Shown here piece after piece: positions 14,311 through 26,032 of a DNA stretch of 48,545 bases (position 1 is the stretch's first letter; every line of letters starts with the position of its first letter). Both the position numbers and the translations under genes were made by a program. Origin of the DNA: Candidatus Saccharimonadales bacterium (GTDB lineage: Bacteria; Patescibacteriota; Saccharimonadia; Saccharimonadales; UBA10212); the NCBI GenBank assembly GCA_025450575.1, contig JANWHE010000025.1:1-48545 (forward strand). Reading direction: 5' to 3'. Below the pieces are notes generated by a model. The model made no database searches and was not told where the DNA came from. It was given only the letters and a program-made list of their open reading frames with translations.

Positions 14311-16506
14311 CTAGTGTTCCATAGCTTTTTCGATGTTCAGCGCGATAACCAGCAGGTCGGCGATATCGCCCTCGTATACCAAGTAATTGGGCTGCCAATC
14401 GGGATCGAACTTGTTTTTGAACTGCTCCAGGCCGCGGGCCGAAAAGCGGCCGGCGCCGAGCGTCTTGGCGATAGTCAGAAGCGGTCCTTTAGCCCGGGCG
14501 AACGGCACGAATCCCAGATCGAAATAAATCGACTGCTCTTTTGACCGCTCGATAGTTTTATAGAGCAAATAAGCCATGGAGTCACCGTGGTCCGGCGAGT
14601 AGCGCAGCAAATCGATCGTATCGGTCGACGCCTGCTTGAACTGCGGCAGCTGGTTGGTGAAGGCGATGATTTTCCGTTTATCGTCGACCAGATAGTGAAT
14701 AACGCACTTTTGGAGATAGTGGGCGTCAAAATAGCCCAGGGCGAAGCCTCTTTCGGCATGGCCGCCGGTCTTCAGCCAGGCGTCAGAGACCTTTTTAAGC
14801 TCGTAAACCAGGCGCCGGGGGTGCGGCGGAACCGACGCGCGGTATTCATAACCGCTTTTACGGGCTTTATTAAGGCGCCAGCGCCACCACTTGTCTTTAG
14901 CCGTACTGTTTAAAAACTTATCGATATTTATCAGCGCGCTTGAGCCTATCTGGAGGTTTTCCAGGCCGGCTTTCTGATATATGGACAGGCTCGTTCCGTA
15001 AACCGGCAGATAACATACCTTGAGACGGCGCCGGCGACACCAGTCATTAAATTGCTTGATTAGTTCCGAGGAATCCGGGCCGACAGGGTCAGCCAGCACG
15101 AAGGCTATGGCACCCACGACGCGATAAGCCACAAACCCCGTGCGGCCGGCCGCCCAGAAGTATTCCTTATCCTTCGGCCAAAGTTTGAAATAGTCTTCCG
15201 TGGAAACGGAATACTTTTGAAGTGTCTCTTCCACTAGCCCATAGTCTATGGGTGTCCGAGCAAGCCGCCGCGGCCTGAATAGCACCCACAGCACGGCGGC
15301 CAGGCTGGCCGCTAAGAATACCGAGATGCTATTAGCCAGTAAGACAGCCTCCAGATGACTATGGGGAGCCACATGAGCCTGGGTGACATAATCCGTTAAG
15401 TTATCTATCGCCCGGACGGTTATCAACGACGCCCGGCTGTCGCTGTCTAGGACCAGCAGGGCCGCCAGGACTGATATCAGCAACCCGGCGACTAAGAAGT
15501 ACAGGTCTTTCAGCCTGACGCGCCAGGTGGCCGCTATAGCCCCCCTATCAAAGTCATCACGCAGAACGAACAGACCGCAGAAGCTCAGCAGATAAAATAC
15601 CATCAGCCCGGCGTTAGGCGAAATGATGGCGTATTTTAAAGTTTCTACGCCGCTCAATAGTAAGAAAATCTGTCGGGCTCGGGCTTCGCCGCGCGCCAAG
15701 TGCCGGCTGAGATAAATCATTACGACCCCGATGATTACCCCGTGCTGAGCCAGCCACGCCGTATCGCCCGTAAAGTATAGGCCTTTGATGCGCCCCACTA
15801 AACTGATATGCGCCAGACTTATGACGATCGCCAAAACTCCATTAAGGAAAGCCCAGGCCGCTACCAGGCTTTTCACTAGCCGCTGCTCGTTCTCTGGCGT
15901 AGAGTAATTCTTTTCGGCAAGGATATCGCGCACATACCAGGCGAGCCAGACTAACAAAGCCGTCTGATAGACGAACTGGGCAGCCGTGTTGATAAGATTC
16001 CTGCTAGCCAGCTGGCTGATAAACAGCAGGCCGTATAGGAACTGGAAAGTCACAAAGCTGATTGAAATCAGTTTCCGCCGTCGCCAGGCATCATAGACGG
16101 CAATCACGAAAAAGAGAGCCGAAGTGAATACCGTCTCTATGGCGTGGAGCAAAAAGGAGAATGAAAAATATTCCTGGCAGCTATCGCCGACTATCCGGCA
16201 AGATGTACTCAGCAGCGGGTCTAGCATCAGACCTATACTGATAGCCAGCAACAGGCCGCCGGTGACTTTCTTGCCTTGTTTTAAGAACTGGAAGGCCGCG
16301 ATAAAAAGCAGGGCGCCAGCTAAAAAGTCCCCGGTTCTGAACAGCCAAGCGAACGGCTGGGACGGTAATTCGTACTGGCTTATCAGGCTGGTGCGGTATG
16401 ATAAGCCGTGATTAAAGTGGGGGGCCAGCAGCCAAGTGGTGCCAATCAATAAAAAGACCAGCTGCCATAAGACCACGTAGCGCCGGCGAGAAAATAGTGT
16501 CTGCAC
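14311..16506 (-). CDS. DUF998-like membrane domain fused to MprF/LysX-type DUF2156 aminoacyl-transfer domain
   Basis: N-term TM region with SLISQYELPSQPFAWLFRTGDF...DPLLSTSC; C-term YFWAAGRTGFVAYRVVGAIAFVLADPVGP...GHAERGFALGYFD...SIYFDLGFVPFARAKG. Confidence 0.8.
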   Translation of the reverse strand: MQTLFSRRRYVVLWQLVFLLIGTTWLLAPHFNHGLSYRTSLISQYELPSQPFAWLFRTGDFLAGALLFIAAFQFLKQGKKVTGGLLLAISIGLMLDPLLSTSCRIVGDSCQEYFSFSFLLHAIETVFTSALFFVIAVYDAWRRRKLISISFVTFQFLYGLLFISQLASRNLINTAAQFVYQTALLVWLAWYVRDILAEKNYSTPENEQRLVKSLVAAWAFLNGVLAIVISLAHISLVGRIKGLYFTGDTAWLAQHGVIIGVVMIYLSRHLARGEARARQIFLLLSGVETLKYAIISPNAGLMVFYLLSFCGLFVLRDDFDRGAIAATWRVRLKDLYFLVAGLLISVLAALLVLDSDSRASLITVRAIDNLTDYVTQAHVAPHSHLEAVLLANSISVFLAASLAAVLWVLFRPRRLARTPIDYGLVEETLQKYSVSTEDYFKLWPKDKEYFWAAGRTGFVAYRVVGAIAFVLADPVGPDSSELIKQFNDWCRRRRLKVCYLPVYGTSLSIYQKAGLENLQIGSSALINIDKFLNSTAKDKWWRWRLNKARKSGYEYRASVPPHPRRLVYELKKVSDAWLKTGGHAERGFALGYFDAHYLQKCVIHYLVDDKRKIIAFTNQLPQFKQASTDTIDLLRYSPDHGDSMAYLLYKTIERSKEQSIYFDLGFVPFARAKGPLLTIAKTLGAGRFSARGLEQFKNKFDPDWQPNYLVYEGDIADLLVIALNIEKAMEH

Positions 16507-21606: not shown

Positions 21607-22095
21607 TTATTTATGCTTTTTGGAGTGCGCCTTGACATGGCCTACGCTGGCACTCCAGACCAGCAATAGGCTGGATAATAAGCCTAGGCCAACGATATAG
21701 GATTCGATATTCTGTAGGTCTTTCCAAAATGGCGAACTCGTAATGTCGACGTTCAGGGCACTATTGAACATCGGCCCGGCAACTACCGCCAGCAGACCGC
21801 CGGCGCATAAGGCCGGGAGTACCTGTAGCAGGGGTTGAAGTTTGCCGGATAACGATTTGAATGTCAGAAGCAGGGTCAGTAGCAAAGGAGCCAGCAACAG
21901 TCCTAGGTCCACATCATTCGAAGTCAAAGAGGTTATCTTGGTCTGTCCAACCAGGTGCTGGATGTCGCTGCCGCTTAAAGTGATGGCCGCGAAACCGCCG
22001 CACAATGCCAAAAAACCCAGCGCAGCATTACTCTTTAGAAAAAGGGTCAGTACGGCTGGCAGTAAGATCAGAATCGCTAAAAGAACATCGGCCAT
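21607..22095 (-). CDS. Hypothetical membrane protein
   Basis: 162 aa with about four TM segments. Confidence 0.7.
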   Translation of the reverse strand: MADVLLAILILLPAVLTLFLKSNAALGFLALCGGFAAITLSGSDIQHLVGQTKITSLTSNDVDLGLLLAPLLLTLLLTFKSLSGKLQPLLQVLPALCAGGLLAVVAGPMFNSALNVDITSSPFWKDLQNIESYIVGLGLLSSLLLVWSASVGHVKAHSKKHK

Positions 22096-22121: not shown

Positions 22122-22661
22122 TTAGAAGACGACAGTCGTACCGATTTTCAAATTTAGCTCGGTAGAACGATTAGCTTTCAGCTCCAGCACGTACTGGGCT
22201 GGGGCTTTATTGACGAATTTGTCCGGATAGGTCTTTGGCGATTCATTAATTTCAATCGCTGCCACCCGATGAGCGGAGGTTATCCAGATGATATCGATGG
22301 GGAACTTCATGCCTTTCATCCAAAACGGATACTGGCCGGCCCTATTGAAGGCGAAGAACATACCTTGATTGGCTGGGATGCACGGCCGGCCGGCTAAGCC
22401 TTTATCGAATTCCTGTGAATCCTTAGCGATTTCAATGGTGATTTTCTGGCCGTTAATAACCACGCTGCCGTCATTGCGATAAGGTCCACAAGCCGTATTC
22501 ACGGTGTTTTTAGATAAGGTCGATGTTTTGGGTTTAGAGCCGCCAATCGTCAAGGCGACGATGACTGCCACGACTATCGCGAGAACAATTATTACAGGTA
22601 CTAACGAGCTGATTTTCAGCGAGGAGATAGACCAAAGCGATGTCTTGTCGTTTTTACGCAC
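22122..22661 (-). CDS. DUF192-family exported protein
   Basis: GLAGRPCIPANQGMFFAFNRAGQYPFWMKGMKFPIDIIWI...VLELKAN. GTG start at 22661 (overlapping the RimK stop) preferred over the ATG at 22730. Confidence 0.85.
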   Translation of the reverse strand: MRKNDKTSLWSISSLKISSLVPVIIVLAIVVAVIVALTIGGSKPKTSTLSKNTVNTACGPYRNDGSVVINGQKITIEIAKDSQEFDKGLAGRPCIPANQGMFFAFNRAGQYPFWMKGMKFPIDIIWITSAHRVAAIEINESPKTYPDKFVNKAPAQYVLELKANRSTELNLKIGTTVVF

Positions 22662-23574
22662 CGACGCGGTCCTTGCGCTGCCGGCCCTTGGCATTACGTT
22701 CGACGTATTCGATGATTTTCGTAGCGACATCGCGCTCGGTTACGGACTCCGGTGTCTTGATGCTGGCCGAAGAGTTAACTTCCAAGACCAACGGGCCCCT
22801 TTCGGAACGCATCATATCCACGCCGCATATCGGTAAGCCCATGGCCTTGGCGGCCTTGATTGCCGTCTTTTCCTCTTCTTCGGTCAGCTTCATGGCCCGC
22901 CCTACCCCGCCTTGGTGGGTATTCGACCTGAAATCGTCGTCCAGGCTCTGCCGTTTGATACTGGTCACCACCCGCCCGCCGACCACTATGGCCCGAATGT
23001 CAGTACCGGCCGATTCTTCTATGAATTCCTGTACCAGGAAGTTCACGCCTTCTACAAAGAAGGCCTGCATCACCGCCTTGGCGGCTTTTTTGGTTTCGGC
23101 TAAAACTACTCCGTTGCCGTGCGTGCCGCGGGCCACCTTGATAATTACGGGCGCGCCGCCGGCCAGCTCCAAAACGTCGTCAAAGTCGGCGGTCTCTCTG
23201 GCGAAAACCGTCTTAGGGACGCCCACCTCGTACTTAGCCAGCAACTGATAAGCTCTCAGTTTATCCCTGGAACGGACTATGGCTATCGAGCTGGCAGTAG
23301 TAAATACGCCCTGCATTTCGAACTGGCGCACCACCGCCGAGCCATACATTGTGTATCGCTGGGCGATCCTGGGGATGATGGCATCGATACCGGTCAGCTT
23401 TTCTCCCTTGTAATATACGACCGGATTGCCTCGTTCTACGGCCATGTAACACTTGGCGTAATTCACTACGCGAACTTCATGGTCACGTAGTTCCGCGGTT
23501 TCTTTCAGCCGCCTGGTCGTATAGTTTTGCGGACCTTTGGATAAGATTATGATCTTCATGCTTTTCTCTCCCAC
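22654..23574 (-). CDS. RimK-family ATP-grasp ligase
   Basis: DAIIPRIAQRYTMYGSAVVRQFEMQGVFTTASSIAIVRSRDKLRAYQLL...GAPVIIKVARGTHGNGVVLAE...LVQEFIEESAGTDIRAIVVGGRVV...GVDMMRSERGPLVLEVNSSAS. Confidence 0.93.
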   Translation of the reverse strand: MGEKSMKIIILSKGPQNYTTRRLKETAELRDHEVRVVNYAKCYMAVERGNPVVYYKGEKLTGIDAIIPRIAQRYTMYGSAVVRQFEMQGVFTTASSIAIVRSRDKLRAYQLLAKYEVGVPKTVFARETADFDDVLELAGGAPVIIKVARGTHGNGVVLAETKKAAKAVMQAFFVEGVNFLVQEFIEESAGTDIRAIVVGGRVVTSIKRQSLDDDFRSNTHQGGVGRAMKLTEEEEKTAIKAAKAMGLPICGVDMMRSERGPLVLEVNSSASIKTPESVTERDVATKIIEYVERNAKGRQRKDRVGA

Positions 23575-24041
23575 ATATTAAACACTTCGAGTTCTCTCTT
23601 CAGCCGCTTCTTCTTGTTCTCTTCAAGCTCTTTCAGCGGCGTGCCGCGACCGACATCGATTAAGAATTTGCCTTTAAGCAACTTGCGGCCGATAAGTATC
23701 GGATAGGTCTTACGGCTCCTGTCAGACAGAGTGAAGGTCGCGACCAGCAATTTGCCGCCTAATTTGATCTGCATCTTAACCACGTAGCGCAGTTCCTTAT
23801 GGCCGAACGAATTGGCCACTCGGGTCAGCAAGTAATGCGGGGCCGGTATAATTATCTCTTTGCCGGTATAGTGTTCGGACTTCGGACCGAACAGTTTGAA
23901 GCTTAATACGCCGTCCTGCTCTCGGATACTTGTGGCCCATAAGCTTGATAAATCTGCGCCGGAATCGATTTTGGCGTGCACGCCTTTAATCCCCAGTTCG
24001 GGGAATGATATTTTTTCCACCCTGCCGATTATTTGCATTTT
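23556..24041 (-). CDS. RimB/RimK-associated retropepsin-like protease (PF05618-type)
   Basis: IIGRVEKISFPELGIKGVHAKIDSGADLSSLWATSI...RKTYPILIGRKLLKGKFLIDV. Start given at the second Met (MQIIGR); the ATG at 24047 is also possible. Confidence 0.88.
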   Translation of the reverse strand, partial: KMQIIGRVEKISFPELGIKGVHAKIDSGADLSSLWATSIREQDGVLSFKLFGPKSEHYTGKEIIIPAPHYLLTRVANSFGHKELRYVVKMQIKLGGKLLVATFTLSDRSRKTYPILIGRKLLKGKFLIDVGRGTPLKELEENKKKRLKRELEVFNMWERKA

Positions 24042-24046
24042 CTCCA

Positions 24047-25312
24047 CTATATAAACTCCGCTTTAAAGCTTTCTTTGATAAAGCCTATCGATCTTCGAAT
24101 ATCATCATTTACTATCACTACAATAACATCTTCGGGCTTCGCTATCCGGGCCGCTCTCTCGATAGCCTTGTCTTCCCGCAAAATCCTTTCGACGTTGGGG
24201 TTCTTGGACTTGAGCGCTTCGGCGAAAGCCTTTGACACTTTACCGACAGTCTCTGGGAAGCTGCCTGTAGTGATCGCGGGTTTCTTCCAGTAGCCATCGA
24301 TCTTATCAAAGACTATGAACCTATCGTAGCTGTCGGCTATGGTCTCGCCGGTCTCCTGAATCAGTTTATCGGTCCTGTCTTTGGCTAGCCGGACCACGCC
24401 GATTACTTGGCCGCCGTCAGTGAGCCCCCGGGCCAGTTCGGCCACTTGTTTAAGCGAGACTTTTTCGTGGGCGTAATCCGCCAAGATGATGGCGCCGTTG
24501 CCGGCCTTAAGCAAGGTCAGACGGCCGCCATAGGGATCAAGCCTGACTGACTCAAACGCTTGCTTCAAATCCGATGGTATCGTCCCGGAGCAAAAAGCTA
24601 TCACCGCAGCCGCGGCGTGCATAAGATTGAATACCGAAGGTTTAAAAGCGCCGCCGAACGTCCAAGGGATATTGTTCAATTCGAACAGCTCCGTCTTACT
24701 GGACTTCTTGAGCAGCCACACCTTGCCTTCCTTGGCCGTAATTGCCATCCCGCCATTCTTAAGATGTTTATCAAGATCGTGATGACTGAAATCTAGTCCG
24801 CAAGGAATCAGGACCGCTTTTTTGGGCGCTTTACCCAGTTTCTTACAAACCAGAGGGTCATCGGCGTTAAAAACCGCGTAAGAATCATCGCGGTCGAGTT
24901 TTTTGAATATGAATTCTTTGGCGGCGGCTATGTCGTCCTTGGTTTTGAGCCGCGAAGATGACCCCAGGTGGTCTTCGAAAACGTTTAGGAATACTCCGAC
25001 TTTATGGTTCCTGTAACCTAGTCCGGCGGCCGCGCTGGAGCCTAGGGCGCACTCTAGAATCGCCACGCCGTTTTCCTTAAGTTCCGGATTTTGATGGAAC
25101 TCCCATAAATACCGACCCGGACAAACCGTCGGCACTAGCCGCCAAGTCTTCCTGGAATCGTCAAGCGTGCTTTTCTGCCGCCCATTGACATAGTGGCCGG
25201 TGGTATCGACCTTTAAGGTATTGTGCCCGAGTTTCCGCAAAACATCAGCAATCACGGCGACAGTAGTCGTCTTACCTTTAGTCCCGGTCACAGAAATAAT
25301 TGGCACACTCAT
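24047..25312 (-). CDS. Mur-ligase family protein of the cyanophycin-synthetase C-terminal type
   Basis: VPIISVTGTKGKTTTVAVIADVL...VAILECALGSSAAAGLGYRNHKVGVFLNVFEDHLG...YAVFNADDPLVCKKL...GAIILADYAHEKVSLKQV. Confidence 0.85.
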   Translation of the reverse strand: MSVPIISVTGTKGKTTTVAVIADVLRKLGHNTLKVDTTGHYVNGRQKSTLDDSRKTWRLVPTVCPGRYLWEFHQNPELKENGVAILECALGSSAAAGLGYRNHKVGVFLNVFEDHLGSSSRLKTKDDIAAAKEFIFKKLDRDDSYAVFNADDPLVCKKLGKAPKKAVLIPCGLDFSHHDLDKHLKNGGMAITAKEGKVWLLKKSSKTELFELNNIPWTFGGAFKPSVFNLMHAAAAVIAFCSGTIPSDLKQAFESVRLDPYGGRLTLLKAGNGAIILADYAHEKVSLKQVAELARGLTDGGQVIGVVRLAKDRTDKLIQETGETIADSYDRFIVFDKIDGYWKKPAITTGSFPETVGKVSKAFAEALKSKNPNVERILREDKAIERAARIAKPEDVIVVIVNDDIRRSIGFIKESFKAEFI

Positions 25313-25355
25313 AAGTGTTATACAATACCATATTTATCGAGTTTTGTATATAGTT

Positions 25356-25922
25356 TTAGAGGCTTTTCCCCAGTAGTTGCGGCAAACCTAGCGTGCCGCC
25401 TTCTTCGGGGTGGAATTGGGTGCCGAAGATCTTCTTTCTTTTGTGGCGGACGATTTCGATGCCGGATTCAGAAACTGCTAGGACTTCAAGTTCTTTCTCC
25501 GGTACCTCGGGGACATACCAGTAATGGGCCTCCACCTGGCTGATAACTTTTTCTTTCAGGGATTTTTGGCCGATGTCGGTAAGCTGGGTGGTTTTAAAGC
25601 CATAAGTAAGCTCCGGCCGGTAGTGCACTTTACCCCCAAATGCCTTGACGATGACCTCGAATCCCATACAAATTCCCAGAATCGGCGTTTCGGCATTCCG
25701 GACGAAATCGATTTCGTCCTGGTACCAAAGTTTCCCGCGGGTAACCTTATCCGTTATCTCGAGCCCTTCCCCGCCGCCGCCGGATAAGATAACCAGGTCC
25801 TTGCCGCTATCATTGATCTCAATGCCCGGACGGTAGTTCTGCATCTCAATTTCATGATCTTTCAATGAAGCAAACAGGGCTTCCAGGTGTTCGGTGTGAT
25901 TGTTAATGAGCAGTATCTTCAT
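25356..25922 (-). CDS. Class I glutamine amidotransferase
   Basis: LVILSGGGGEGLEI, PILGICMGFEVI (nucleophile Cys), IFGTQFHPEEGG (His-Glu). Confidence 0.88.
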   Translation of the reverse strand: MKILLINNHTEHLEALFASLKDHEIEMQNYRPGIEINDSGKDLVILSGGGGEGLEITDKVTRGKLWYQDEIDFVRNAETPILGICMGFEVIVKAFGGKVHYRPELTYGFKTTQLTDIGQKSLKEKVISQVEAHYWYVPEVPEKELEVLAVSESGIEIVRHKRKKIFGTQFHPEEGGTLGLPQLLGKSL

Positions 25923-26032
25923 TTTTGGTGGTTAAGGACCTGGGTAAAGACTAAATAGATTACGGCGCCAATCAACAGCAGGAATAGGATAAGCATTGGG
26001 ATGAAGCCGTTCTGGTCTTTGTTTTTACTCAT
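25919..26032 (-). CDS. 37-aa single-TM peptide (MSKNKDQNGFIPMLILFLLLIGAVIYLVFTQVLNHQK)
   Basis: Read from sequence; TGA stop overlaps the ATG of the amidotransferase (ATGA). Absent from ORF track. Confidence 0.7.
   Translation of the reverse strand: MSKNKDQNGFIPMLILFLLLIGAVIYLVFTQVLNHQK

Follow-up and report, generated by a model that had tools for sequence, protein, structure and literature searches.

The stretch of DNA analyzed here, which we call the window, is a 48,545-nt contig (JANWHE010000025.1, assembly GCA_025450575.1) of a Candidatus Saccharimonadales bacterium, and its minus strand carries a compact gene cluster that includes the retropepsin-like peptidase RimB and the ATP-grasp ligase RimK. 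We found that RimB and RimK are the core of a locus that recurs in Saccharimonadia, in which a variable slot carries different amide-forming ligases depending on the genome, and that the slot ligase of the window, as judged by profile, sequence and predicted-fold matches, is homologous to the M domain of cyanophycin synthetase (CphA) but forms a protein of its own. The reading we favor, at a probability of about 0.45, is that of a RimB-RimK locus with accessory modules, in which this Mur ligase would decorate the side-chain carboxylates of a tail made by RimK. The cluster consists of the following genes (TM, transmembrane stretch).

25919–26032, minus strand: micropeptide PEP, 37 aa, single-pass membrane, motif NQxGFIP[ML]-TM-Y-x-RV (translation, family alignment)
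25356–25922, minus strand: class I glutamine-amidotransferase-fold enzyme (GATase), C85/H171/E173 (PF00117, E = 1.8e-23)
24047–25312, minus strand: predicted stand-alone CphA-type Mur ligase, 421 aa, M domain only (Mur_ligase_M + Mur_ligase_C, PF08245 + PF02875; TIGR02068)
23556–24047, minus strand: RimB, retropepsin-like aspartic peptidase, DSGA at the DTG site (PF05618, E = 3.6e-19; best match NF052261 RimB)
22654–23559, minus strand: RimK, alpha-L-glutamate ligase of the ATP-grasp type (PF08443, E = 2e-55)
22122–22661, minus strand: DUF192 membrane-anchored protein (PF02643, E = 5e-25)
21607–22095, minus strand: 162-aa protein, mostly long helices, predicted membrane protein (TM160), with homologues downstream of rimK

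A first-pass annotation of the sequence had listed the first six of these genes in this order on the minus strand, and each domain assignment was matched (PF00117, Mur_ligase_M/_C, PF05618, RimK and DUF192). It had also described start/stop overlaps between most neighbors, which held for the micropeptide/GATase (4 bp), Mur/RimB (1 bp) and RimB/RimK (4 bp, counted from the ATG) junctions and failed for GATase and Mur, which are separated by a 43-bp gap; a further 26 bp lie between DUF192 and the 162-aa open reading frame. The likelier start of RimK is the ATG at 23559, where an ATGA overlaps the RimB stop (orthologues are 300–303 aa long), and that of DUF192, as read from the sequence, is the GTG at 22661, overlapping the RimK stop. 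The cluster is real and not a chance arrangement, since its genes recur together in many genomes, and the linkage and the ligase-plus-protease logic of the annotation were borne out. A promoter scan found sites no more numerous than in shuffled sequence, and the promoter-like boxes before PEP and Mur were recognized by eye only.

Identity of the Mur ligase

The best NCBIfam profile for the Mur ligase was TIGR02068 cyanophycin synthetase (E = 4.8e-59, model positions 478–860), compared with 1.1e-23 for MurE, and its best PDB sequence match was 7wac (E = 1.6e-38). Structure prediction and a Foldseek search, as the first-pass annotation had proposed, gave a model with a pLDDT of 94 whose best match was CphA1 (7lgj; E = 3.5e-30, TM-score 0.81), with MurE (1e8c; E = 3.6e-21) as the top non-CphA PDB fold match. 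The CphA affinity that had been suspected from motifs alone was therefore upheld by all three kinds of match. The P-loop lies at residue 9 and the alignment covers the middle and C-terminal domains only, and therefore the UDP-binding N-domain of MurC–F is absent. Orthology to an ordinary peptidoglycan enzyme, which the annotation had named as a finding that would overturn its proposal, was excluded for both classes of candidate: we rejected a MurC–F identity because there is no N-terminal UDP-substrate domain and the profile favors CphA, and a MurT/GatD identity because there is no MurT_C domain and the amidotransferase belongs to another family (PF00117, not GATase_3). Besides this enzyme, the window genome encodes a MurE-like ligase (L002) that has both Mur domains, and a genuine MurT_C + GATase_3 pair exists separately in the class, in a related genome (L144).

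CphA-type Mur ligases were present in 8 of the 245 Saccharimonadia genomes. A tree of the Mur ligases, in which the most diverged rows (L026, L252 and L253) are assigned on long branches, contained two Saccharibacteria lineages (a 9-row clade, and L015/L016), both of which lie in the RimB-RimK locus. The cross-phylum grouping of L015/L016 with Nomurabacteria was weak (91/77), and we therefore claim no transfer for these genes.

The first-pass annotation had read the cluster as a split CphA with RimK as its ATP-grasp half, a reading that we rejected because RimK is near-universal in the class without a Mur ligase, and because the true CphA-type ATP-grasp is a different gene in sister genomes. 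In L010, L011, L015 and L017 that gene shares the slot with Mur, and the CphA-type ATP-grasp genes found beside Mur in these loci and in L022 and L023 matched TIGR02068 at E = 2e-29 to 2e-77. In the Moranbacteria-type loci L022 and L023 the pair adjoins an RloC-retropepsin fusion and a 7TM protein resembling RloB, and in other phyla, too, Mur has an ATP-grasp ligase as its neighbor, in most cases accompanied by a retropepsin (L021, L022, L023, L025). In G352 (L253), both CphA domains are found in one 891-aa protein adjoining a RimB-like protein; the whole array, from a candidate phyla radiation (CPR) cluster (L253:15-5541), comprises a retropepsin-like fusion, the fused CphA-like protein and a further CphA-type ATP-grasp gene. 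When the CphA-type ATP-grasp profile was searched against the window genome, which is 87% complete, only RimK itself matched. A split CphA is thus true of the family, and we do not extend it to the window. CphA-like enzymes thus occur in separated and shuffled form, as split genes in Saccharibacteria and Moranbacteria and as a fusion in G352, a pattern relevant to the origin of CphA. Compared with CphA1 (7lgj, 7wac; PMC9427784), the window Mur ligase shares the predicted M-domain fold and family, and sister genomes hold a separate G-domain gene, whereas the window enzyme is unfused and without the N domain, its substrate-site stretches have diverged and no G-domain gene was found in its genome.

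The RimB-RimK locus and its variable slot

The RimK of the window passed the TIGR00768 cut-off (242 bits against 143), and its closest PDB sequence was 7qyr (E = 1.8e-90). At a threshold of E ≤ 1e-60, RimK was present in 190 of the 245 genomes, and the catalytic D[TS]GA of RimB was kept in 77 of 78 locus RimB domains, the window reading DSGA. One Saccharibacteria genome (G146) encodes a 471-aa RimB-RimK fusion (L151:6517-7932), and RimK open frames of similar length occur in G088, G101 and G200.

Reading approximately 100 loci, many of them from incomplete assemblies, gave a usual order of dnaK, dnaJ, [micropeptide], variable slot, rimB, rimK, (DUF192), 162-aa protein, comEC and yebC. The 162-aa protein had a homologue in 79 of 83 RimK loci (for example, L012:4921-5403) and DUF192 in 45 of 83; the former matches no Pfam family, and a PDB fold search with its model (pLDDT 89) returned no match. 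Among the 71 loci with a clear dnaJ-rimK interval, the slot held at least one extra ligase in 42 and no recognized ligase, MATCAP-like or amidotransferase gene in 23. Per 10 kb, the slot contained 3.08 ligases and the flanks 0.048 (~65-fold), a ratio that is biased upward in that the families were chosen from the slot and the loci were hand-picked from the best RimK matches. The slot ligases comprised CphA-type Mur, CphA-type ATP-grasp, ATP-grasp_4 with LAL_C2 (the L-amino-acid-ligase type), ATP-grasp_3 and extra RimK-like proteins, and the hydrolases were MATCAP-like or amidotransferase-like, with MATCAP-like peptidases (tubulin tyrosine carboxypeptidase family) in 15 of the 71 slots (e.g., L153:8336-9640). 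In the window and in three further loci (L011, L012 and L017), Mur, RimB and RimK were adjacent and overlapped by 1–4 bp, while L016 had the order RimB-Mur-RimK with 4-bp overlaps on either side. The annotation had asked whether these genes co-occur across CPR genomes: they do recur together, although RimK mostly occurs without Mur, and three Mur genes are unlinked.

None of the papers available to the search dealt with Saccharibacterial RimK or its locus. One of the closest described systems is RimB-RimK/RimABK of Pseudomonas (PMC11957791, PMC7343187), with which the locus shares an adjacent retropepsin-like RimB and RimK alpha-L-glutamate ligase; in contrast to that system, no rimA was seen, and slot ligases next to rimB, the micropeptide and the 162-aa partner are added. 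The RloABC osmotolerance operon (PMC12239564) resembles L022 and L023, which carry the RloB-like 7TM protein (PF14402 in L022) and RloC-retropepsin fusion, but neither a 7TM protein nor an inactive transglutaminase RloB was found among the window cassette genes scanned.

The GATase was most similar, among solved chains, to GMP synthase subunit A (1wl8). Its Cys-His-Glu triad is kept, and its GxCxGxQ motif reads GICMGFE, with Glu at the last position; the human gamma-glutamyl hydrolase motif, GTCLGFEE, likewise has Glu there. From its sequence, the enzyme may be a glutaminase or a gamma-glutamyl hydrolase, two activities that the motif does not distinguish. Close relatives (47–55%) were confined to the family to which the window genome belongs (G071, G075 and G119), where the gene adjoins the micropeptide and RimB-RimK in the absence of a Mur ligase. 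We therefore rejected the GATase as a Mur-specific partner.

PEP is a conserved, real and previously unannotated gene family, nearly always found in a RimB-RimK-type locus. A profile built from 12 sequences gave 58 strong matches in 57 of the 245 genomes, 50 of them within 6.1 kb of RimK, and PEP was present in 45 of the 83 RimK loci. Two of the remaining eight adjoin a RimK once the region is read (G027 and G211), one is the second PEP of its genome and lies where the contig ends, and five lie in RimK-negative loci between dnaJ and the 162-aa gene (G064, G065, G150, G172 and G193), four of which contain other ATP-grasp genes, while the fifth (L159, G150) holds none. The genomes sampled from the large family f2 yielded no PEP, although RimB-RimK is present there. 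The family is characterized by NQxGFIP[ML], one hydrophobic stretch, Y-x-RV and a basic end; in the 57 sequences collected, the C-terminus is mostly K, H, R or Q, and an acidic residue occurs in the last eight positions in 3 of 57. One close pair gave dN = 0.26 and dS = 1.71. We rejected a graspetide precursor, since PEP has one hydrophobic helix with basic ends and no acid-rich core. A candidate G-to-F prepilin-peptidase site was also considered in PEP, which lacks the pilin Glu5. Three family-f1 genomes encode a longer frame, with approximately 25 extra residues (TQHL...LSA) between NQxG and GFIPM (L139:9141-9347, L145:8477-8668 and L146:4195-4377). In Saccharibacteria, the locus thus brings to light a conserved family of 37-residue membrane peptides that had not been described, together with a constant 162-aa partner.

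Candidate functions of the locus

In the favored reading, RimK would add L-Glu to the C-terminal carboxylate of ribosomal protein S6 and/or another protein, RimB would cut the poly-Glu back, and the Mur ligase would use ATP to attach an amino acid or ammonia, through an isopeptide bond, to carboxylates on the side chains of the acidic tail, with the GATase either supplying the ammonia or hydrolyzing gamma-glutamyl or amide linkages. RimK is known to add Glu to S6, which is described as the one protein in bacteria known to be poly-alpha-glutamylated at its C-terminus, and to make poly-alpha-Glu, while RimB removes Glu and stimulates RimK (PMC11957791). The Mur step is proposed by analogy, because the CphA M domain acts likewise on poly-Asp, adding Arg to Asp side chains (PMC9427784, PMC9262961). 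Gene identities, linkage, overlapping junctions, conservation and the predicted Mur fold are direct results of this analysis; that Mur acts on what RimK makes, what the GATase does and which substrate is modified are the inferred parts of the reading. We favor it because Mur, RimB and RimK overlap by 1–4 bp and both Saccharibacteria Mur lineages lie in the locus, because Mur adjoins an ATP-grasp ligase, usually with a retropepsin, in other phyla too, because Mur matches the CphA M domain in fold and profile and the catalytic residues of RimB and the GATase are kept, and because S6 tails in the group are acidic, often with Glu at the end. Were it correct, bacterial tails would carry branched, enzyme-written chemistry.

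Several observations count against this reading. Two stretches of CphA, ETARGGILR and DDDTRGR, are not conserved in the Mur alignment, and therefore neither arginine nor aspartate chemistry should be assumed. RimK scored 314 bits on the S6-ligase equivalog NF007764, just below the cut-off of 331, and RimK and RimB are found in most Saccharimonadia without a Mur ligase. The three unlinked Mur genes (L013, L014 and L020) lie away from RimB-RimK and form a derived clade. Acidic S6 tails were present alike in RimK-negative and RimK-positive genomes, for which reason we rejected the S6 tail as a discriminating marker for RimK, and S6 was not found in the incomplete window genome.

A broader proposal, which we regard as unlikely but worth stating, is that the locus is a modular protein- or peptide-tagging island, anchored by two constant components, the membrane micropeptide and the membrane-type 162-aa protein, in which ligases write and hydrolases erase side chains. 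It would require that ATP-grasp, Mur and L-amino-acid ligases be interchangeable on a RimK-made tail, with retropepsin, MATCAP-like and amidotransferase-fold enzymes as erasers; if true, the island would be a bacterial counterpart to the tubulin tail code. Equally unlikely is that the product, made or edited by the island, is a free poly-amino acid, either cyanophycin-like or a branched poly-Glu, that serves for storage or as a polymer of the surface; Mur and the CphA-type ATP-grasp would then form a split synthetase, whose product would be processed by RimK or RloC with the retropepsin. The separate ATP-grasp that accompanies Mur in six loci (L010, L011, L015, L017, L022 and L023), the single 891-aa protein and the stimulation by RimB of poly-alpha-Glu synthesis (PMC11957791) would fit such a polymer, but no CphA-type ATP-grasp was found in the window genome at 87% completeness, loci with that gene mostly occur without Mur (17 versus 8 of 83), the N domain of CphA is missing and the sequence at the acceptor site has diverged.

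It is rather doubtful that the slot is simply an insertion-tolerant spot whose cargo consists of unrelated small-molecule ligases sharing rimBK transcription but not function. Cargo does differ between related genomes, and the 23 slots without recognized cargo agree with this, yet the cargo is skewed toward carboxylate-amine ligases and peptidases (allowing for the upward bias in ligase density), the junctions overlap and the same associations recur in other phyla. The micropeptide, which the first-pass annotation had listed among possible substrates, is improbable as a substrate or membrane anchor modified by RimK, Mur and other ligases and trimmed by RimB or a MATCAP-like peptidase: its presence in over half of the RimK loci, its 4-bp overlap with the next gene in the window and its persistence with other ATP-grasp ligases in most RimK-negative loci are set against its basic C-terminus, its absence from the sampled f2 genomes despite RimB-RimK, its retention where RimB-RimK is missing and its occurrence in L159 without any ligase. 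Cell-wall amidation, in which the GATase and Mur would act on lipid II like GatD/MurT, is largely refuted and very improbable. The window does resemble that pair in that its Mur ligase gene follows one for a class I amidotransferase fold; both partners, however, belong to other families, MurT_C is lacking, the pair is not linked in relatives and the GATase gene occurs without Mur in G071, G075 and G119, a genuine pair exists separately in the class (L144) and the window genome has its separate MurE-like ligase.

Elsewhere in the window, positions 14311–16506 encode a protein of 731 aa in which DUF998 and phosphatidylglycerol lysyltransferase C-terminal domains are combined.

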